Source: Leptospirales bacterium
GTDB taxonomy: Bacteria; Spirochaetota; Leptospiria; Leptospirales; Leptospiraceae
Assembly (NCBI GenBank): GCA_013297885.1
Contig: JAAFIR010000041.1
Location: 1-40,081 of the forward strand
DNA: 40,081 nucleotides
Reading direction: 5' to 3'
Under the pieces are notes generated by a model that saw nothing but the letters and a program-made list of their open reading frames with translations, searched no databases and was not told the origin of the DNA. How positions within the stretch are numbered: the stretch's first letter is position 1; each line of letters begins with the position of its first letter. The position numbers and the translations under genes were made by a program. This document shows, piece by piece, positions 2,522-40,081 of the stretch.

Positions 2522-3502
2522 ATGAGTAAAACAGTAAAAGTAGCAGTCACAGGAGCTGCAGGTCAAATCGGTTATTCCCTACTATTCAGAATTGCATCTG
2601 GTCAAATGTTTGGTCCAGATACAGCCGTTGAATTACAACTATTAGAATTAGAAGCTGCATTACCAGCATTAAAAGGTGTAGTAATGGAATTAGACGACTG
2701 TGCATTTCCATTAGTCCAAAAAATCACAACTACATCAGAATTAGATGTTGCATTTAATGATGTAAATTGGGCTTTACTTGTTGGTTCAGTTCCAAGAAAA
2801 GCTGGAATGGAAAGAGGAGATCTTCTCAAAATCAATGGTGGAATTTTTACAAAACAAGGAAAATCAATTGAAGCAAAAGCAGCTTCAGATGTTCGTGTGC
2901 TAGTTGTTGGTAATCCATGTAACACAAATTGCTTAATCGCAATGAACAATGCAAAAGGTATTCCACAAAATAGATTCTTCGCATTAATGAAGTTAGACGA
3001 AAACAGAGCGAAAAGCCAACTTGCTGAAAAATCAGGAATTGCAGTTTCAAAAGTTTCTAATGTAACTATTTGGGGAAATCATTCTGCAACTCAATACCCA
3101 GATTTTTACAATGCTAAAATTGATGGCAAGGCTGCAACAGATGTCATCAAAGATGAAAATTGGCTCAAGACAGATTTTATTTCTGGGGTTCAAAAACGTG
3201 GTGCAGCAATCATTGCAGCTCGTGGAGTTTCATCTGCAGCTTCAGCTGCAAACGCAGTAGTTGATACAGTTGTAAATTTAACTACTCCAACTAAACCAGG
3301 AGATTGGTTTAGTGCCGCTTGTATTTCTGATGGAAGTTATGGCACTGAAAAAGGTTTAATTTTTGGATTCCCACTTACATCTGATGGAAAAGATTTTAAA
3401 ATTGTTCAAGATGTTCCATTAAATGATTTTGGAAAAGAAAAATTTAAAATCACTCATGATGAATTAGTTTCTGAAAGAAATGACGTGAAGGACATGCTGT
3501 AG
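2522..3502 (+). CDS. mdh: Malate dehydrogenase (NAD-dependent)
   Basis: 326 aa, normal length for the cytosolic-type (MDH type 2) family. Catalyses malate + NAD+ to oxaloacetate + NADH in the TCA cycle. Visible: the nucleotide loop [19 protein letters not shown], substrate-binding arginines in [23 protein letters not shown], the Asp-Arg segment [12 protein letters not shown], and the catalytic His in [13 protein letters not shown]. All key residues are present, although the His of the usual LDHNRA run is Glu here. The ATG follows a GGAG site at good spacing. A hairpin repeat begins 9 bases after the stop and could end the transcript. Confidence 0.96.
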
Positions 3503-14365: not shown

Positions 14366-15241
14366 TTATTTATTATCGAGTAAACCCTTTAAATCATTAG
14401 TCAACTTTGACAGTGCGTGAGCATATCTGAGGGATAAATCGGAGCCTTCAGTAGTGAGTTTTGACAATTTATAGACATTTAATATGTTATCATTCACTGA
14501 ATTGGTAGATTTTAATAGATTTGAAGAGTTTTTTGTAACTTCTGACAAATGCTCAGCTTGTTCTTCAATTGAATTTTCAATAACATCTTGAGAATTTTTT
14601 ATGTTCAAAATTTCTTTGCTAACATCATTTAAAGACTCAATTGCTTTTTTTGAATCTGTGTAAAAGTTATCAATTTTTGATTTGATATCGTCAGCAATTT
14701 TTGAAGTTTCTTTTGCAAGTTCCTTGATTTCATTTGCAACTACAGCAAAACCTCTACCTGCTTCACCAGCTCTAGCTGCTTCAATCGATGCATTTAGTGC
14801 AAATAAATTAATTTGTTGAGCTAACCCTATGATGATTTTATCAATTTTGTCTAAATCTTTGCTACTCTCCAAAAGACTACTAAAAACTTGGTTTGTAGAA
14901 TCAACTGCTTTTAAAGCTTGTACTGACGACTTAGAAGAAGTTTGAGCATTGGATGCAATTTTTTTAACACCTGTTTTAATTTTCTCAATAGAATTCCCAA
15001 CAGACATAACTGTTTGGCTTAGTTGCTTTCCAGCATTGGAAGCTTGATTTGTTTGTTTTTCAAGTTTGCTAGAATTTTTATTTAAATTTTCCGACATCTC
15101 CGAAAAGTCATGGATAGTTTGATTCATCGAAAATAAAATTTTATTAGAGTCATTATCTGAAGCTTCCACTTCATTAGTCGCCTCTTTAATTGATTTAATG
15201 GTTTCAAACGGATTGCTACCGACAGTCCTTCTAAGATTCAT
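14366..15241 (-). CDS. Soluble methyl-accepting chemotaxis protein
   Basis: 291 aa, almost entirely the antiparallel coiled coil of an MCP signalling domain. The hairpin tip that binds CheA and CheW is intact: [20 protein letters not shown] followed by [12 protein letters not shown]. There is no membrane segment, HAMP or ligand domain, so it is cytosolic and any signal must come through a partner. It directly follows the ParA-type gene with no spacer and precedes the NHL-VWA gene. Soluble arrays placed by a ParA-like protein are known in other bacteria, and the gene order here suggests the same (inference). Confidence 0.92.
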
Positions 15242-16021
15242 TTATTCCTCCTTAAATTTATTTTCTTGAAATAATACTTCTGCTGTAAATGCTTTATAAT
15301 CTAATGCTGCTTCTGTTCTGTTGTCATATTGAAAAATAGTTTGATGAAAACTAGCACACTCAGACATTTTTACATCTTCACGGATAAATGTTTTGTAAAC
15401 TAAGATACCAAATTTTTCAATCAAGATATCTAGAATTTCCAGACTATGTTTTAAATTTGTATCTACTCTACAAGGTAATATTCCAGAGATTTTTAAATTT
15501 GGGTTTAACTTTGATTGAACAGATTCTAATGTTTCAAGTAAAGATAATACTCCATATAATGCAAGAGTTTGTGCAACAACAGGAATTATGATTTCATTAC
15601 AAGTAGCAAGTGCATTAATCGTTGTGAGACTAAGCCCAGGTGAACAATCAAATAAAATATAATCAAAAGAATCTTTTGGTAATTTAGAAAATTTATTTTT
15701 TAATAAAAAAGGTTTATTAGGATAGGATTTCATTTCATTTGAAAATTTATTTTTAATTGGCGAAAATGGAATTATTTCTAAGTTTTTTACTTTGGTATTT
15801 TGTTTTAATTCAAAAATTAATTCTGGACCAGCTTTTAAATCAAATAATTCTTTGTCTGCAACATATTTATGATAACCCATCCAAATTGAAGATGATGCTT
15901 GAGGGTCTAAATCCACAATTAAAACTTTTTTTCCTCTTTCAGCAAGAGCTGCTCCAAGACTAACAGCTGTGGTAGTTTTTCCACTTCCACCTTTTTGATT
16001 ATTAATTACTATCTTTCTCAT
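15242..16021 (-). CDS. ParA/Soj-family ATPase of chemosensory operon
   Basis: 259 aa. Deviant Walker A motif NQKGGSGKTT with the signature lysine, Walker A' VLIVDLDPQASSS, Walker B DYILFDCSPGLS. These are the marks of ParA/Soj/MinD-like ATPases that position cargo on the nucleoid or membrane. No ParB or parS-like gene is adjacent; the flanks are cheW and a soluble MCP, so it resembles ParC-type ATPases that segregate chemosensory clusters. The next gene starts right at its stop, so translation is coupled. A plasmid-partition role is unlikely in this context. Confidence 0.9.
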   Translation of the reverse strand: MRKIVINNQKGGSGKTTTAVSLGAALAERGKKVLIVDLDPQASSSIWMGYHKYVADKELFDLKAGPELIFELKQNTKVKNLEIIPFSPIKNKFSNEMKSYPNKPFLLKNKFSKLPKDSFDYILFDCSPGLSLTTINALATCNEIIIPVVAQTLALYGVLSLLETLESVQSKLNPNLKISGILPCRVDTNLKHSLEILDILIEKFGILVYKTFIREDVKMSECASFHQTIFQYDNRTEAALDYKAFTAEVLFQENKFKEE

Positions 16022-16033
16022 AACTATCCTAAA

Positions 16034-16471
16034 TTAAGATACCCTATCTGATTTGAATTCTAATATCTTTTCTAAATTTATTATTAGCAAAGACTCTTCA
16101 TCTAAAATATCATACGCTTGTGAAATGAATTGTTTTTCTATTCCTTTCACAACTCTCGGTATTTCCATTCTTACAAAATTACGGTTTACTTCTTCAATTT
16201 CTAAAAAATCGTCCACGAGTAAACTAATTAATCCACTTCGACTTCTTAAAATCAAATGATTAAAACTTATTCGATTTCCATTTGGAATATCAAAAATTTT
16301 TCTTAAATCTATTACTGAAACTATATGTCCACGATGATGAATGATTCCTTCAATAAAGCGATTTGCCAGTGGAACTCTAGTAATTAATAAGTCTTTACAT
16401 AGTGTAAATACTTTTTGTATTTCAATTCCTAGTAATTGTCCATTTATTCTAAATGTAAAATATCTTTTCAT
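16034..16471 (-). CDS. cheW: CheW-like coupling protein
   Basis: 145 aa, a lone CheW domain that bridges MCPs to CheA. Typical elements are an N-terminal YFTFRINGQLLGIEIQKV strand pair, the RVPLANRFIEGIIHHRGHIV segment with the conserved R-G-x-I/V motif, VIDLRKIF, and a second subdomain ending in LLIINLEKIL. Starts four bases inside the end of the cheA gene (ATGA overlap) and ends 12 bases before the ParA-type gene. Part of a separate, non-canonical chemosensory system, since no methylation enzymes or response regulator are nearby. Confidence 0.92.
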   Translation of the reverse strand: MKRYFTFRINGQLLGIEIQKVFTLCKDLLITRVPLANRFIEGIIHHRGHIVSVIDLRKIFDIPNGNRISFNHLILRSRSGLISLLVDDFLEIEEVNRNFVRMEIPRVVKGIEKQFISQAYDILDEESLLIINLEKILEFKSDRVS

Positions 16472-18138
16472 TCAAATACCTCTTCTTCTTTTGGAAGAGT
16501 TAAATCTAAATTTTTTAAATGAGCTCTCATTATTTCACCAACATCCAAAATTAATGCAGCTGAATCATCTTGTAAAACTGTTACCCCGGAAAATAAATAA
16601 ACATTCTTAATTTCGTTTGTCAACGGCCTAACAATTATATCTTCTGTATCAATTATATTATCAGCTACTAAACAATATTTTACATAATTAACTTCAATAA
16701 CTAAAATAGAAATTTTTGAGTCCAAATCTTTTTCAGTTTCTTTATCATATTTTAAAACTTGCGTTAAATATAAAACTGGTAATAACTCCCCACGAAGTTT
16801 AAACACAGTAAATCCATTTATGTTTTGAAGTGAAGTTGCAAATTTATCTCTGGAAGAATTAAGTACTTCAAAAATATTTGCACGTGTAATAATATATTTT
16901 TCTTGTTGAACTTTTAAAATAATAGATGGAACAATAGAGTTGATTAAAGGTAAAGTCAAATGAAATTCAGTACCTCTTTTGGGAGTAGTTTTAAACAAAT
17001 AAAACTTTCCAGCAATTTGCTCTACTGAGTTTCTAACTACATCCAAACCCGCTGAAGATTTTGAATTTGATATTCCTTGTTCAAAAATAAAATCAATTGC
17101 TTCTTTATCTGAAAGTTCATTTGCTTCTTCAGTAAGAAGTAAATTTTTTTCGATAATTTTTTTACGAATCTTGGCTGGATCGATTCCCGAACCATCATCT
17201 TTTATTTTAAGATAAAACAATTCTCCATGATGGTATGCACTCATATGAATTTCTCCTTGAGGAGATTTTCCTGCTAGATCTCTATCAGCTGGAGATTCAA
17301 TTCCATGCTCAATTGCATTTTTAATTATATGAATTAAAGAGTTACGAAGTACATCCAGTGTTCTGATATCTAATTCTTTGTTTTCACCATCAATCATGAT
17401 TTGCACTTTTTTTTCTTGAGAAGTTGCAATATCAGAAACCACTTTATCAAAATTTACAAGCAATGTCGAGAGTGGTTTTACTTTTGCTTTATGAACTCTG
17501 GAATACATTTCTTTTAAAATCAAAGATTGTTTTCTAGCAACAGATTCTAATTCAGATTTTTTATCTTGGCTTGCTATTTCACGAACTTGAACTTGTGTAT
17601 ACATCAAAGATAGTACTAAATTCATAAGACCATCCATTAGTTCATCTTCAGTAAAAAAAGATGCAAAAGCAACTGGAATTTCAGCGGCAGAACCTCTTCG
17701 GGATAAATCTTCTAAGTCCTCATCTGTAGAAGCAACTATAAATTCTTCACCGGATTCTTGCTTTTTTATAACTTCTTCAATATCACTCACCATGCTGGAG
17801 TTAATTGTGTCTGGTTCTTCTCCTTTTTCATCTAATGAAAAAATAATTTCTCTAAGAGAAAAACTTAGCTTTAATAAAATTGTGATTAGTTCGTTTGAAA
17901 TATTGTATTCAGAATTTCTTAGATTTCCAACAAGTCTTTCTCCAATCACAGCCATTGAAATAAGTTTGTTAAAATTATACTGTTTAGAATTGTCAATAAT
18001 AGTACTAAAATAGGAATGTATTGAATCTAATAAAAGTCTTGCATCTGGATTTTTTCCAAGTTGAATTAATTCTTTATCTAGATTGTTTAATAATTCATAA
18101 TTTTGATCTAGAAATGATTTTAATTGCTCTTTATCCAA
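16468..18138 (-). CDS. cheA: Divergent CheA-type histidine kinase
   Basis: 556 aa. N-terminal HPt-like domain keeps a His (H41 in DSIHSYFST), but the usual H-[TS]-x-K-G surroundings are lost. There is no clear P2 CheY-binding domain. A dimerisation helix pair (about 195-255) precedes an HATPase with N-box HIIKNAIEHGIE and G1 box DDGSGID. The G2 region is shortened to SSAGLDVVRNSVEQ, lacking the usual GRGVG. A C-terminal CheW-like domain runs from about 400. Start is TTG 18138 with GGGAG eight bases upstream. It heads the operon. Kinase activity is uncertain because of the HPt and G2 changes, and phosphotransfer must use a regulator encoded elsewhere. Confidence 0.85.
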   Translation of the reverse strand: MDKEQLKSFLDQNYELLNNLDKELIQLGKNPDARLLLDSIHSYFSTIIDNSKQYNFNKLISMAVIGERLVGNLRNSEYNISNELITILLKLSFSLREIIFSLDEKGEEPDTINSSMVSDIEEVIKKQESGEEFIVASTDEDLEDLSRRGSAAEIPVAFASFFTEDELMDGLMNLVLSLMYTQVQVREIASQDKKSELESVARKQSLILKEMYSRVHKAKVKPLSTLLVNFDKVVSDIATSQEKKVQIMIDGENKELDIRTLDVLRNSLIHIIKNAIEHGIESPADRDLAGKSPQGEIHMSAYHHGELFYLKIKDDGSGIDPAKIRKKIIEKNLLLTEEANELSDKEAIDFIFEQGISNSKSSAGLDVVRNSVEQIAGKFYLFKTTPKRGTEFHLTLPLINSIVPSIILKVQQEKYIITRANIFEVLNSSRDKFATSLQNINGFTVFKLRGELLPVLYLTQVLKYDKETEKDLDSKISILVIEVNYVKYCLVADNIIDTEDIIVRPLTNEIKNVYLFSGVTVLQDDSAALILDVGEIMRAHLKNLDLTLPKEEEVFE

Positions 18139-27588: not shown

Positions 27589-29181
27589 CTATTTGAGAGA
27601 ATTGAGCAAATAAGCTTTTAAAAGTTTAAAATCAATTGGTTTTTTTAAATAAGAATCCATCCCTGCTTCAAGACATTTTTTTTCATCATCTTTTAAAGCT
27701 CCTGCAGTTAGTGCAATTATGTTTACATGAGAGTTGGATACTTTTTCAGATTCTCTGATTTTTTTTGTAGCTTCATAACCATCCATTTCTGGCATTTGAA
27801 TGTCCATAAAAATTATATCTGGTTTGTATTTTAGATACTGTTCAAATCCCTCAATCCCATTTCTAGCTTTATGAATAGAAGAATTTTTAGTAATCTTATA
27901 AATCATAGAATTTAATAAACTTAAATTAATTTCATTATCATCTACTATTAAAATACTAAATTGTTTTTTTGTATCTCCTTCAATAGTTTGATTTGAATTA
28001 TTTTGTCCAACTTGTAAATTTTTTTTTGTTTCTGAAGATGGAATGTTCATTTCTTCTTTAATATAGGTTAATTTTAAAGTAAAATAAAATTTACTACCTT
28101 TTCCAGATTCACTATCAAGTTCAATTGAGCTTCCCATTTTTTCAACTAGGCTCGCAGAAATTGCAAGCCCAAGTCCAGTGCCTCCAAACTTTCTAGTAGT
28201 TGATGAATCTGCTTGAGAAAACTTACTGAATAATTTCTTTTTTTGTTCAGGAGTAATTCCTATGCCAGTGTCTTGAACAGAAAAAGTGAATAAGCCAATT
28301 TCATTTTCAATTGACTGATTAAAAATTAGACTTAGTTCAACTTTTCCTTTATTCGTAAACTTGATTGCGTTATTAACTAAATTTATTAATATCTGTTTTA
28401 AACGAATTGAATCTCCAATTATCCATCTAGGAATATTTTCTTTTATATTAAAATTTAACTCAATTCCTTTTTGCTCAGCAGCAAATCTTAGAATATCTTT
28501 AACTTCGTTTATTAATTGAATAACATCTATTTGAATAGTTTCTAATTCTAATTTCCCAGCTTCAATTTTAGAAATATCTAATACATCATTAATCATAGAA
28601 AGTAAATTATTGCCAGATAAATGAATTAGTTCTACATAAGATTTTTGACTTGACTCCAACTCTGTCATTCTTAACAAATCTGAATATCCGATTACAGCAT
28701 TTAAAGGAGTTCTTAATTCATGACTCATATTTGCTAAAAATTCAGATTTTGCTTTATTTGCATTTTCTGCTTCCAGTTTTGCAATTTTATGTTTTTCTTG
28801 AATAATAAGATTTTCTTTTGCTAGATGAGAAATTTTTTCTGCAAGTTCTTCAGCACTGATATTTTCATAGTTAAAATTAAAATCTTTATTTAATATTTGA
28901 GCAGTGTTAATTAAATTATTTATAATTTGTTTATTTTTTTGTAATTCAATTCTTAGCAAAGCATTTACTTCGCTTAATTCTTTTGTACTAATTTCAACAC
29001 TTCTGGTGTTTAAAATACTAGCTCTTTCCATATCTACATATGAAAGATCTACTGAATTTATAAAACCTTGGATTTTCTTTTTATTTACTTCATCAAATCC
29101 ATTCAGAAAAGTTTCTAAGTCAATTTCACTTGAAATACCTAAATATTTTCTAAGTTGCCTTAAAAGTAATGAATTCATCAA
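27589..29181 (-). CDS. Hybrid sensor histidine kinase with receiver domain
   Basis: 530 aa, no membrane segment. An N-terminal helical/coiled-coil region (1-140) leads into HisKA with phospho-acceptor His154 in [20 protein letters not shown], then HATPase (N-box, [16 protein letters not shown]), and a receiver domain from about 400 with ILIVDDNE and phospho-acceptor Asp460 in [11 protein letters not shown], plus LKKPI. Cytoplasmic hybrid kinase; the final phosphorelay partner is elsewhere. Its start overlaps the end of the FIST gene by four bases, so the FIST protein is the likely signal-input partner. Confidence 0.94.
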
Positions 29182-30332
29182 ATATCTTTTTCATAAATAT
29201 AAGTAATAGTCATAGTTTGATTGTGTAGTTTGCAATTGGTTGAAGTTATAAACGGGCTAATTTCTCCATTTGAATAAAAACCTGAAATCAAACTTTTTTC
29301 TCCAATCATAGAACGAACTGCTTCAATTTCTTCCTCAGTTCTTTCACCCATAATTAATTTTCTACCAACACAGCTAACTAGAATGGTTAAAGAATTGGAA
29401 TCTGTACTTTGAATTTTTTGGAGAACTTGTGTTGCAGCTTTTTCAGCACCTTCAACAAGTAAATTTGTGTTGGAATGCATTAATTTTACAAAACTACCTT
29501 CTGGAATATCTCCTGCCAAAGTCATCGAAGATTCAGTTTCATTAATCCCTAAGATTGTGCGGATCAAACCTTCTTCTTCGTGATTTTTATTTAATAATGC
29601 AAGTGGATAAAGTAAAGCTGAAGTTGGTAAATCTTTTGCATATTCACCTAAATAAGTTTTGTAAAGTTCTAATGCTGGTTTATCATCTAATTCATATAGA
29701 ACATTTCCTTCTGATTTAGTTACTAATCTGGAAGGTCCAAAAGATTGCCACCCACCAAATGATCCATGAGAAATACCAACTGACTCCCCATAAAATCCTA
29801 GAGCTACATTAATATCTGATCTAACTTCTCCTTCATATATAACAAATGTTTGTTCAAACTTTCCATTATCAGCAGCTAAACCACCTGTTAAAATTACTGA
29901 ATCATTTAGATTACTAACTAAACCTTTTATAAAGCTACTTCCATTAATTTTTACACCTTGACCTATCACAAACAAGGATTTTAAATCTGGGCTGTTTAAT
30001 TTTTTTGCTAACTCTTTTCCAGAGTTCTCTGAATCTTCCATTTTTAAAATAACATTTGACTCAGCTTTAATTTTTACTTTTTCAAATTGAATAGCATTTA
30101 TAACTATGCTTTCTTCTGAAATTCCTGAATTAGAAATTTCACCAGCAGTTGTACAACCAATCATTTTAGTGTTTGGAAAAGAATTACTCAATTCTTTAAA
30201 AAAATCTTTTTTTAAAATACATTTTTCTACATTTCCAAAAATTAAAAAAATACTTGGTTCAATTTCTTGAATACCTTTTATAATATCTGAAGAATCAAAA
30301 TTATCTGTTAAGGTTACTTGTTTAAATTTCAT
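29178..30332 (-). CDS. FIST-domain sensory protein
   Basis: 384 aa with FIST-N ([20 protein letters not shown]) and FIST-C ([30 protein letters not shown]) domains. FIST proteins bind small ligands, thought to be amino acids or similar, and are found with histidine kinases or MCPs. No signal peptide or membrane segment. Overlaps the hybrid kinase gene by four bases, the usual coupled arrangement. The ligand is unknown. Confidence 0.92.
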
Positions 30333-33287: not shown

Positions 33288-34577
33288 TCACCTATTTTCT
33301 ATTGGAATATAATTCAAATTCATTGGACCAGTGTAAATTTGTCTTGGTCTTGCTTTTTTGAAATTGGATTTGATTCTAAGCTCTCTCCAATGTGCAAGCC
33401 AACCAGGAAGTTTACCCATAGTTTGCATTACAGTGAACATTCTTTTTGGAATTCCGATTTCTTGAAAAACAATTCCTGAATAAAATTCTAAATTTGGATA
33501 TAGATTTTTTTCTTTATAAAAAGAATCATTATCAATATAATTTTCAAACTCTCTTGCAAAATCTAAAATTGGCGATTTTTTATTATCAAAATAATTGTGA
33601 AAAATTTCTCTTGCTACAAGTGATCTAGGACTTTTTGTCAAATAAGCTGTGTGACCAAGAAAATTGGATTTAGTTAATTCTTCTTTCACTTTTGAATCTG
33701 ATATATACTCTTTTACAGATTTTTTTGAAGTAGTTATTTTTTCTAAGAATTCAATTGCTGCAACACTTTGACCACCTTCACGTGAACCCCATAATGCAGA
33801 AATTCCAGCTGAAATTGAAGCAAATAAATTTGATTTTGTGCTACCAACTAATTGAACTGTTGAAGCAGCCACATTTTGTTCATGGTCCGCGTATAGAATT
33901 AAAAACTGATTTAACAATTTATCAATTTCTTGAGGGGCAACATGATTTTCTGATTCTGCAGGGATTGAAAAAAGCATATGTAAGAAATTGGAACAATAAG
34001 GCAAATTATCTTTTGGATATACAAATGGTTGACCAATAGTTTTTTTATAAGAAAAAGCAGCAATGGTTCTAATTTTACTCAAAAGTCTAGTAACTTGATC
34101 AACACCTTTATCAACTGATTCTTCATAATCATCAGGATAATAACTAGACAATGCCATAATCATTGTGGATAAAACTGCAAGTGGATGAGCTTTACCAGGA
34201 AAACCATCAAACAAATTGATCATATCTTCATGAATCATGGAATGTTTAGCTAATCGATTTGTAAAATCTTGAAGTTCAGCTTTTTTTGGTAAATTTCCAT
34301 AAATTAATAGATAAGAAGTTTCCACAAATGTAGAATGTTTTGCTAAGTCTTTGATGTCGTAACCACGATAACTTAGTGTTCCGTTTTCAGGATCTCTTCT
34401 AGAAACTTGGCTTTCACCAATTGCAGTATTAAAATTTCCTGGATCAACAGTGACTACGCCAGTCGAGTCATATAAAGTTTTTATTTCAATACCTTGTTTT
34501 CCATCAGTTCCTGTTACCAAATTTAAAGGAATAATTTTATCATCTAAATGAAGTTCTGCTTTTTTATAATTGGTCAT
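33288..34577 (-). CDS. gltA: Citrate synthase homologue with altered active site
   Basis: 429 aa from ATG 34577 (MTNYKKAELHL), the usual length and start for type II citrate synthase; the upstream in-frame TTG at 34604 is less likely. Family blocks: VTVDPGNF, TLSYRGYDI, FLILYADHEQNVAASTVQLV, LPGWLAHWRELR. Two of the three catalytic residues differ. The His of GPxHGGANE is Glu267 (ALWGSREGGQS) and the Asp of PNVDFYSGI is Glu364 (PNLEFYSGI). The third, His309 (FLGHTAYL), is kept, but GFGHRVYK lacks its Arg. Activity is uncertain. It may be a specialised or dead paralogue, not the main TCA enzyme. Preceded by a 306-base gap. Confidence 0.85.
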   Translation of the reverse strand: MTNYKKAELHLDDKIIPLNLVTGTDGKQGIEIKTLYDSTGVVTVDPGNFNTAIGESQVSRRDPENGTLSYRGYDIKDLAKHSTFVETSYLLIYGNLPKKAELQDFTNRLAKHSMIHEDMINLFDGFPGKAHPLAVLSTMIMALSSYYPDDYEESVDKGVDQVTRLLSKIRTIAAFSYKKTIGQPFVYPKDNLPYCSNFLHMLFSIPAESENHVAPQEIDKLLNQFLILYADHEQNVAASTVQLVGSTKSNLFASISAGISALWGSREGGQSVAAIEFLEKITTSKKSVKEYISDSKVKEELTKSNFLGHTAYLTKSPRSLVAREIFHNYFDNKKSPILDFAREFENYIDNDSFYKEKNLYPNLEFYSGIVFQEIGIPKRMFTVMQTMGKLPGWLAHWRELRIKSNFKKARPRQIYTGPMNLNYIPIENR

Positions 34578-36480: not shown

Positions 36481-38379
36481 TTATTTCTGAAGTAACCAAG
36501 GCACAATGCCAATCGACCAACTATGCGCAAGACTGGCATTAGCCTCTGTCTTTTCATAGATTGTACCAAAGTCGCGGGCGATCGGTCCATAGTATTCGCG
36601 AATGAACTTCATTGAACGTTCAATGGAAACGTACCTGAGAGCATTTGCTATAAAATACGCAAAATAGGGAGTAACCCGTTTTCGAAGATTGCCATTGGAG
36701 ATTTCTGCTTCTAAATACGACAATGCTTCTAGTCTTTTATCCTTTCCAGATGAGCAGGTAATCGCTGTTGCACTCGCATGTGGACTATTTTTGCTTTCTT
36801 TAAACGTTAGTGAATATGCCTCCCCTGTCCAGAATGCTGCATCGAATACACTGGCTTGGATTGCTAAATTCGGAGCCATGGTATCGCAAAGTTCAGACCA
36901 CCAAGCATTACAGACTGCATGCGGACTTATATCATCAATGGGCATGCGACTTGCAGCAACCATTGCATCAGTCGGATCCCAATCAGTAAAATACCAGCCG
37001 CGCATACCCTGAATTAGTCCGTCTTGTAGATAATGCTTCGTCCAAAACTCTATAGAATTATTGACTACAGACTTTACAAGAGGGTCTCGCTTCAATTCGG
37101 GATCATGTTCAATTGCAGTCAAGCAAAAGGAAAGATGGAAGGTGGGTATTGGTAAGTATTCACCTGGTGTCCATATAGGCCAAGCTCCACTTATCATTCC
37201 ATTTTTTGGATCATAGGATTTTGCAATCTGATGAAGAGCCAAATCTATCACTTCTAAATTATTAGTTAGTGACCGAAGAGCTTTAGAACTCATTCTGAGA
37301 TCACCAGTCCATTGCGATCTCTCTCGCCAACAAGTATCGACCACTCCACCATCAACACAGGCAATGAGATTATTTCTACATGCCTCTATGATTGGATAAT
37401 CGACTGTATCCGCAATGACAGTTTTCCATTCTAGTGGATATTCTCTTCGCCAGCCTTTCAGTATTGGTTTCGTTGTATTCACTTCATATAGTACATGGAC
37501 ATACCGACACCCACGAAATCCAAATACTCCTGTTTGAATTTCCTCTACGAATGCATCCGCCATCTGCACTTTTGCACGAGAAGACGTAGCAACTGCTTCA
37601 TCGAAAGAGGAAACTTCACTGTAAGTCAAAACACATTCTGAGTTTTCAGTTTTGATTTCAAAGCGGTATAATGCTATTTGTCCCAGATCGAAAGTCTCAC
37701 AAATTAAATCACAGGGCTGTTCCTCTCTAACGTACAATGCAATATTAGCCGCAGTCGATGGTTTAAATGCTTTTTGCTTTAGAACTTTTATGATTGTACT
37801 TTGAATAAGTTTCAATTCAATTGGAATGAAGTTAGAACGGGAAATCGGTGATAATAGAATTTTCCAATCAGTAAAGAGTTTGGCTGGAACTAGAGATATA
37901 TCAGTATTATGCGCCTTTGTAACAATTGTTTGGCGGGGTAGCTGCTCGCAAACTTTTGCACCGAAGTGGATCTTATTTTCTATAGAGCATTTCCATTCTT
38001 TTTCAGAAGGTAATCCCACAAAAAAGGGATCTTCGAATAGACATCGGAAGTAAACACGAGTAGCCGCTGGATTCATCCAATGCAAACGCACGAGGACTTC
38101 GGTAGCATTTTTTGTTTCATACCAATAGTCTGCCAACGCTTCTCCGTTAGCACATCTATGCCCACCATCACCGATAAATTTTCCATCTACCCAGACTTCA
38201 TACGGAAAATTGCTCGCAAGCGTAAGTGGCTCGCCGCCAGTAGTTGTGAAGTTGTAAATTCTTTCCGGAACATCGTCATTGACTAACGATTTAGCCCAGA
38301 GAAATTTTTCTTTTGCAATTACTAGTGTTTCTTCGTTATTAAAAAAGGAATTCGTTTTGCTTTGTTTCATACTCTTCAT
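36481..38379 (-). CDS. GH78-like (alpha-L-rhamnosidase family) glycoside hydrolase
   Basis: 632 aa. The six-hairpin glycosidase signature of alpha-L-rhamnosidases is visible in CWRERSQWTGDLRMSSKALR, matching the family's C-P-x-R-D-E-R-x-G-W-x-G-D line, with EYLPIPTFHLS and RGWYFTDWDPTDAM further on. N-terminal residues 60-130 resemble the beta-sandwich sugar-binding part (FPYEVWVDGKFIGDGGHRCA). No signal peptide is seen, so a cytoplasmic role is likely. Composition is clearly richer in G and C than most of the window, which suggests transfer. Starts 8 bases after the stump of a response-regulator gene on the same strand. Start at the second Met (38370) is equally possible. Substrate is not certain. 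Confidence 0.75.
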   Translation of the reverse strand: MKSMKQSKTNSFFNNEETLVIAKEKFLWAKSLVNDDVPERIYNFTTTGGEPLTLASNFPYEVWVDGKFIGDGGHRCANGEALADYWYETKNATEVLVRLHWMNPAATRVYFRCLFEDPFFVGLPSEKEWKCSIENKIHFGAKVCEQLPRQTIVTKAHNTDISLVPAKLFTDWKILLSPISRSNFIPIELKLIQSTIIKVLKQKAFKPSTAANIALYVREEQPCDLICETFDLGQIALYRFEIKTENSECVLTYSEVSSFDEAVATSSRAKVQMADAFVEEIQTGVFGFRGCRYVHVLYEVNTTKPILKGWRREYPLEWKTVIADTVDYPIIEACRNNLIACVDGGVVDTCWRERSQWTGDLRMSSKALRSLTNNLEVIDLALHQIAKSYDPKNGMISGAWPIWTPGEYLPIPTFHLSFCLTAIEHDPELKRDPLVKSVVNNSIEFWTKHYLQDGLIQGMRGWYFTDWDPTDAMVAASRMPIDDISPHAVCNAWWSELCDTMAPNLAIQASVFDAAFWTGEAYSLTFKESKNSPHASATAITCSSGKDKRLEALSYLEAEISNGNLRKRVTPYFAYFIANALRYVSIERSMKFIREYYGPIARDFGTIYEKTEANASLAHSWSIGIVPWLLQK

Positions 38380-38585: not shown

Positions 38586-40081
38586 GGTTTACTGAAAAAC
38601 TCAGCTCGAAATTTGTTTTTCAAAGAAAATCAATTTAAATACAGAAAAATAGTTCGCAAAAAAATTAGACAAAAGATCTCGTAGTCTTTTTTCTAAATTC
38701 ATCACTAGAACGATGAGTCCGATTACTGATTTCGAAGTTGCTTCAAGTTTTGCCATAATGCGCCCTAGACTGTAACGTCTTTTTGCTTCTCCGAATTTTC
38801 CTTCTATCGGATTTCGAATGGAAGTTCTCGCTTGACCTTCATCAATTAATTCTACAGGCATCATTCCTAAAGTTATTGTAATTCCATTTTCTTTGCAAAA
38901 TTTTTTATTTTCTTTGTTATGATAAATTTGATCCGCTGCGATTACTTTTGGAAAGACTCCGTGAATGGCAAAATAATTTTCTGCATGTTCTTTCAACAAA
39001 GTCGATTCATTGAAATTTTCCCAAGAATGTTTTTCTAATCTTGTAAATCCATCCTTCAAAGAAAAAGTTATCTTCGATCCAAATTCAACATTGGATGATA
39101 CCTTGCCTCGAACGATTGGTCTTATATGCGGCTGTGAAATGCTCACGATGCGAAATTCAATTCTATGTTTTTTTTCAACGAACATTTCTTGTTGCTGTCT
39201 GTGCAATTCGCAAATCACAAGTAGATCTTTGTATTCTTTCTTTTTTAAACACTGTAAAATTTTTGGATTATCATCAACTAACTTTGTTATATGTTTTAAA
39301 TCACGAGATACATATTCAAGCTGATTTTTCAACGTTTTACGCACTATTTTATACTTTGGTTTCTTCTTACCTATGAATACCAAAAATTTTTTCCTCGCAA
39401 TTTCACGATACGTTCTTGGCTTAGGAATTAATTTTGCGGTATGATTATAAATTTTATCGATCAACAATTCTAACTTTTCTCTAGCTTCGTTTAAGAGTGA
39501 TATGTCCGTAGGATAACGAATGTCCGCTGGTGCACAAGTCGCGTCCAATAAAAGCACGCCATCATTTTTATTTTCATCTTCACTCTTTTTACTTTTATCA
39601 ATTTTATTTTCTTGCGACTCTGAATTTTTCTCTTCTGGCTTTTTTTCCTGATTCAATTCAGCCAGATTGATAACCAACTCATTTATCTCATTCATCATTT
39701 CTAAATTTATTCGCTTCCGAAAATGAACCATCATACTCGAATCAAAAGGAGGTTCAATTTGAAATTCACGAAATCCTAAAAAAAATTGCAAGTAAGCATT
39801 TTCTGTTATTTGAGATACAGTCTCTTCATCTGAAAAGCCACATCTCTCTTTCACAATCAAAGCACCGAGTGCAGTCCGCAACTTCAACGCAGGCGCTCCT
39901 TTCTTCTCCGAAAATATTTTAGAATATTTTTCTTCGATCTTATCCCATGGAATTATTAGAGTTGTTGCAAAATAACAAATCGTCTTAAAAAAAACTTGTA
40001 CAAAAACAGTAGAATAATTTATTTTCCATATGAAAGATATAGAAAAGATTTTAAAAAAGAAAAGGTTATGTCTTGCGTTGA
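38585..40081 (-). mobile_element. IS5/IS1182-like insertion sequence, incomplete in window
   Basis: The left end is marked by GGGTTTACTGAAAAACTC at about 38585-38602; the transposase stop codon is inside this end sequence. The transposase runs towards the right and no matching inverted end (GAGTTTTTCAG...) is seen before 40081, so the other end is outside the window. Inserted in a response-regulator gene. A 13-base ACTGAAAAACTCA string also occurs inverted in the response-regulator stump at 38498-38511. Confidence 0.65.
38601..39887 (-). CDS. DDE transposase, IS5/IS1182 type (5' end unclear)
   Basis: At least 428 aa from TTG 39887. The DDE catalytic residues are visible: VLLLDATCAPADIRYPTD (first Asp), VIAADQIYHNKEN (second Asp), and RNPIEGKFGEAKRRYSLGRI (Glu). 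The N-terminal DUF772-type domain includes LKLRTALGALIVKERCGFSD and QFFLGFREFQ. The same frame is open beyond this start and contains the family's IPWDKIEEKYSKIF just upstream (to about 39965), but there is no ATG, GTG or TTG there before the window end. So the natural start is either outside the window or lost. A charged Lys/Glu linker near residue 100 is variable in this family. Confidence 0.85.
   Translation of the reverse strand: MKLRTALGALIVKERCGFSDEETVSQITENAYLQFFLGFREFQIEPPFDSSMMVHFRKRINLEMMNEINELVINLAELNQEKKPEEKNSESQENKIDKSKKSEDENKNDGVLLLDATCAPADIRYPTDISLLNEAREKLELLIDKIYNHTAKLIPKPRTYREIARKKFLVFIGKKKPKYKIVRKTLKNQLEYVSRDLKHITKLVDDNPKILQCLKKKEYKDLLVICELHRQQQEMFVEKKHRIEFRIVSISQPHIRPIVRGKVSSNVEFGSKITFSLKDGFTRLEKHSWENFNESTLLKEHAENYFAIHGVFPKVIAADQIYHNKENKKFCKENGITITLGMMPVELIDEGQARTSIRNPIEGKFGEAKRRYSLGRIMAKLEATSKSVIGLIVLVMNLEKRLRDLLSNFFANYFSVFKLIFFEKQISS

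Follow-up and report, generated by a model that had tools for sequence, protein, structure and literature searches.

A fixed citrate synthase paralogue of the Leptospirales with replaced catalytic residues and a possible role in carboxylate sensing

The 40,081-nucleotide stretch of Leptospirales DNA that we analyzed (contig JAAFIR010000041.1, hereafter the window) carries a Type II citrate synthase homologue on its reverse strand at 33288..34577, with the ATG at 34577 and the stop codon, included in these coordinates, ending at 33288. The ORF is full-length, contains no internal stop and encodes a 429-aa protein, hereafter CS-like, that matches Pfam PF00285 (Citrate_synt) at 347 bits against a gathering score of 27, and thus belongs to the citrate synthase superfamily. 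The best Foldseek matches of its AlphaFold model (mean pLDDT 85, pTM 0.86) were Type II citrate synthases (TM 0.83-0.86), indicating that the predicted fold is intact. The gene lies among fliG, a small lipoprotein-like ORF and a divergent membrane protein gene. None of its neighbors is conserved among the examined genomes of the window's own family, which led us to reject an operon in the window itself.

The window also contains mdh (2522-3502), as the initial annotation had reported. A CheA-like protein with HATPase and CheW domains and without a Pfam Hpt/P1 phosphotransfer domain is encoded at 16468-18138, adjoining genes for CheW, a ParA-like ATPase and a short MCP-type signaling protein (14366-16471). 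At 27589-30332, a FIST-domain sensor gene overlaps that of a hybrid histidine kinase with a receiver domain, the two being a probable small-ligand sensing unit. The sole match of a 632-aa protein encoded at 36481-38379 was alpha-L-rhamnosidase, below threshold, and a DDE_Tnp_1_2/DUF772-type transposase is found near the right end (38601-39887).

The initial annotation noted two substitutions in the catalytic triad and predicted that a second citrate synthase gene with intact motifs would be found elsewhere. A search of the window's genome (4.6 Mb, 99.99% complete) revealed exactly two PF00285 genes, the CS-like gene and one on contig C4 whose product scores 461 bits and keeps HGGAN, GHRVY and VDFYSG intact. 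The predicted gltA is therefore present, and the CS-like gene is not the only citrate synthase gene of this genome. A canonical citrate synthase was also found in every genome of the order that is at least 90% complete. The CS-like protein falls below the NCBIfam equivalog cut-offs for citrate synthase (436.3 vs 505 bits and 392.9 vs 485 bits), whereas its canonical paralogue exceeds both (658 vs 505 and 593 vs 485, respectively). It also remains well below the curated cut-off for 2-methylcitrate synthase (PrpC), at 257 vs 421 bits.

We compared the active-site residues of 27 full-length CS-like paralogues with those of 49 canonical sequences, using the E. coli numbering; all codons given here are on the reverse strand. 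The alignment bears out both substitutions in the window protein: Glu267 (33777..33779) corresponds to the catalytic His264, and Glu364 (33486..33488) to Asp362. The third catalytic residue, His305, is retained as His309 (33651..33653; 25/27 paralogues), immediately ahead of the change of GHRVY to GHTAY that had also been noted. Hence, the His264/His305/Asp362 triad of functional citrate synthases (EC 2.3.3.1) reads E, H, E in the window protein. Position 264 is Glu in all 27 paralogues, as well as in one CS-like fragment, and His in 49/49 canonical sequences. The conserved Glu/Glu pair that the initial annotation envisaged thus holds at position 264 in every orthologue and fails at position 362, which is Asp in 16 paralogues and Glu in 11; this position is acidic in 27/27, and the Asp-to-Glu change is not fixed.

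Furthermore, the replacements extend beyond the triad. Phe383, found in 49/49 canonical sequences, is Arg in 20 paralogues and Gln in seven, including the window protein (Gln385, 33423..33425). His226 and Arg387, both invariant in the canonical set (49/49 each), are replaced by Tyr in 27/27 paralogues (Tyr229, 33891..33893) and by Lys in 26/27 (Lys389, 33411..33413), respectively. Arg306, Lys309, Asn310 and the Gly-Gly-Ala-Asn loop that follows residue 264 vary among paralogues, Arg306 being replaced in nearly all of them. Conversely, His229 is invariant (27/27), as are the carboxylate ligands Arg314 (Arg318, 33624..33626; 27/27) and Arg407, which is contributed by the partner subunit (Arg410, 33348..33350; 27/27), while Y366 and S367 are strictly conserved. 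Among the oxaloacetate/citrate ligands H229, H305, R314, R387 and R407, the window protein departs from the canonical set only by the change of Arg387 to Lys. The initial view of a protein well kept outside two catalytic residues is therefore right about the triad and must be amended elsewhere, as Phe383, Arg306, Lys309 and the HGGAN loop are also gone, and it is the oxaloacetate-side residues that are kept.

In E. coli citrate synthase, Phe383 contacts the acetyl group, and the F383A and F383M mutations reduce kcat by 97% and 93%, respectively; the 267-297 loop, which includes A267, moves with acetyl-CoA (PMC11167817). In solved enzymes, the equivalents of His305, Arg314, Arg387 and the partner-subunit Arg407 bind oxaloacetate or citrate (PMC6386500), the archaeal residues being matched here to the E. 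coli numbering by order and spacing. Judging from the residues, the part of the predicted active site that holds the carboxylate has been preserved, whereas the part that handles acyl-CoA has been taken apart.

The CS-like gene was detected in 29 of the 30 genomes of the order examined, a sample that seemingly does not include Leptospira proper, and spans about 17 genera. Twenty-seven copies are complete and two are broken by contig ends; the one genome without the gene is 67% complete. In the other orders of the class, 18 genomes were examined; all lacked the gene and had only canonical or short citrate synthases. We take the sister family to be Leptonemataceae, the window's family to be relatives of Leptospiraceae, and the other orders to include Turneriella, all three tentatively. 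In a profile search of 393 genomes across the phylum, the 27 full-length CS-like members scored 681-776 bits and no other full-length match exceeded 534 bits. Spirochaetes outside the class that possess two citrate synthases (G057, G187 and G244) have His264 in both copies. Given this score gap and the His264 of these duplicates, we rejected the presence of the CS-like clade elsewhere in the phylum. In a plasmid search judged by identity alone, none of the 15 listed records exceeded about 43%.

Phylogenetic analysis placed all CS-like members in a single clade (support 100/100) whose two branches correspond to the order's two families, suggesting that the gene was present in the ancestor of both families and has been inherited vertically. 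The reading frame is intact in every full-length copy, and dN/dS between near relatives is about 0.02-0.09, values that are rough, several pairs being close to synonymous saturation, yet remain far below 1. The CS-like protein changes faster than the canonical enzyme, with a mean identity of 55% vs 75% across ten genomes. The CS-like gene is an ancient Type II citrate synthase paralogue, fixed in the order and under purifying selection. Its product combines loss of catalytic residues with a retained fold and purifying selection, as pseudoenzymes do. As the initial annotation anticipated when it raised neofunctionalization, a replacement of His264 that all orthologues share under purifying selection is a sign of changed function.

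In the sister family, the CS-like gene usually ends a conserved string composed of rsgA, HK1, HK2 and the CS-like gene. HK1 and HK2 are 7TMR-DISM membrane proteins (L055:4442-8223; also L056, L058-L063, L066 and L100-L108). HK1 keeps its ATP-binding boxes and lacks the phospho-acceptor His in 18/19 cases, while HK2 has no recognizable ATP site. In nine sister-family genomes, the CS-like gene directly follows a degenerate 7TMR-DISM kinase gene after a gap of 15-52 bases. HK2 is a single-copy gene in almost all members of the order; the genomes that lack it are G010 (91% complete) and three others whose completeness is 81% or less. In the window's genome, the HK1-HK2 pair is found directly after the polyphosphate kinase gene (L100:2798-8660, G000 contig C28), unlinked to the CS-like gene. 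The link between the CS-like gene and the two kinases is suggestive only, because two sister-family genomes lack HK2 and still carry the CS-like gene, and because synteny also extends to the downstream genes.

Given this retention of the carboxylate side and breakdown of the acyl-CoA side, the CS-like protein most likely no longer makes citrate, yet would still bind a di- or tricarboxylate. Glu264, together with Arg or Gln at position 383, could close or repel the acyl-CoA pocket, so that a ligand bound between the two domains would drive only the open-to-closed movement. The output would then be this movement itself, or binding of the protein to its canonical paralogue or to a signaling partner, which makes a carboxylate-sensing regulatory pseudoenzyme the most likely identity of the protein. 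In such a protein, citrate synthesis would be lost and the site for oxaloacetate, citrate or a similar ligand kept, a proposal that we consider about evenly balanced between right and wrong. It is the reading best in line with the canonical copy in the same genome, the single clade, the low dN/dS, the loss on the acetyl-CoA side, the scores below the curated cut-offs and the intact fold. The position of the CS-like gene directly 3' of a degenerate 7TMR-DISM kinase gene in nine sister-family genomes is suggestive of the same role. By analogy, Caulobacter CitA offers a precedent for control of the cell cycle without enzymatic activity. Several observations stand against a regulator. The acidic residue at position 362 in 27/27 paralogues is what a working acid/base would require, and a new enzyme fits it equally well. 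A protonated Glu in place of His264 could in principle leave weak citrate synthase activity. Finally, the CS-like gene and the sensor kinase genes are not syntenic in the window's own family, and HK2 is missing from two sister-family genomes that carry the CS-like gene, G010 (91% complete) and G017 (81% complete).

An enzyme that catalyzes a new reaction on the bound carboxylate comes a close second, and we regard it as a serious possibility with perhaps a third of the weight. The retained carboxylate site and an acid/base pair formed by Glu264 and Asp/Glu362 would then catalyze a different reaction (condensation, cleavage or hydrolysis, for instance), in which the partner would be smaller or would not contain CoA. 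An invariant Glu264, an always acidic residue 362, the strict conservation of H229, R314, R407, Y366 and S367 and the strong purifying selection are all compatible with such an enzyme. Conversely, the positions that contact CoA vary among orthologues, making a CoA ester an unlikely second substrate, and no metabolic gene is a common neighbor of the CS-like gene in the window's family.

The CS-like protein might instead be a subunit of, or an input to, the two degenerate kinases encoded upstream in the sister family, acting as the carboxylate sensor of a membrane signaling complex. We consider this unlikely; it is a special case of the regulatory pseudoenzyme, so that the confidence given to the two overlaps in part. 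The rsgA-HK1-HK2-CS-like order, with its 4-base overlaps and its gap of 15-52 bases, recurs in several genera, HK2 occurs once per genome and in the order only, and the degenerate state of both kinases (HK1 without its phospho-acceptor His in 18/19, HK2 without ATP boxes) would suit a partnership of this kind. However, the kinase pair is located elsewhere in the window's family, and G010 and G017 retain the CS-like gene without HK2. Furthermore, synteny extends beyond the CS-like gene on its downstream side, and its adjacency to the kinases may therefore reflect inherited gene order. Somewhat less probable again is a bolder form of this idea, in which the CS-like fold would be a citrate/oxaloacetate sensor reporting the state of the TCA cycle to a membrane complex of the two degenerate histidine kinases, a pseudoenzyme signaling module ancestral to Leptospirales.

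We attach little probability to a citrate synthase that works slowly or at an altered rate, or to an enzyme acting on another pair of 2-oxoacid and acyl-CoA, such as a 2-methylcitrate synthase or a homocitrate-type enzyme. The full-length Type II fold, His305 and the acidic residue 362 would allow it, but His264 and Phe383 are replaced in all paralogues and Arg306 in nearly all, and the protein scores below the curated cut-offs for both citrate synthase and methylcitrate synthase. Strong matches to the methylisocitrate lyase PrpB, as well as PrpD, were absent from all genomes of the order searched and present in sister lineages, and the sister orders with PrpB carry separate short citrate synthases. 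Taken with the cut-offs, the missing PrpB and PrpD render a methylcitrate synthase unlikely, and we set this identity aside. As for a decaying duplicate without function, the lost catalytic residues are outweighed by full-length copies that are all intact across about 17 genera with dN/dS of about 0.02-0.09, which excludes a pseudogene and leaves this option next to no probability.

The CS-like protein resembles the Type II enzyme GltA (NF004126, TIGR01798; E. coli, Hymenobacter 7e8n) in length, fold and the presence of H229, H305, R314 and R407, and differs from it by H264E, F383Q/R, R387K, H226Y, D or E at position 362, altered CoA loops and scores below the curated cut-offs. Citrate synthase II/2-methylcitrate synthase (TIGR01800, PrpC) belongs to the same superfamily; the CS-like protein is far below its cut-off, and its pathway was not found in the order. 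Citryl-CoA lyases (NF004864-NF004869) have the catalytic domain region in common with the CS-like protein, which matches them weakly and locally, far below their cut-offs, and unlike them possesses the full N-terminal Type II region. The closest functional parallel may be CitA of Caulobacter crescentus, a moonlighting citrate synthase whose control of the cell cycle does not depend on its catalytic activity (PMC7083601). In both cases, a citrate synthase fold is believed to have a regulatory, noncatalytic role, alongside another functional citrate synthase. However, CitA is catalytically active and the inactive forms that were tested were engineered, whereas the CS-like protein is a natural protein without the catalytic residues. 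Our searches of the open literature yielded no description from this group of a citrate synthase whose catalysis is naturally altered.

Two gltA loci have been reported in Leptospira interrogans, LIC12829 (PMC2841595) and LIC12925 (PMC5979558). One of them may be a CS-like orthologue, in which case the clade would include pathogens. The CS-like genes are probably annotated as gltA in the genomes studied here, and metabolic models built on this annotation would be misled, perhaps for pathogenic Leptospira too. On present sequence comparisons, the CS-like gene is a fixed and selected citrate synthase paralogue whose product is most likely a carboxylate-binding regulator, with a new enzyme as the next most likely identity. 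With its carboxylate side kept and its acyl-CoA side dismantled, it would allow a clear and cheap test of the idea that a citrate synthase fold can be put to new use as a metabolite sensor.
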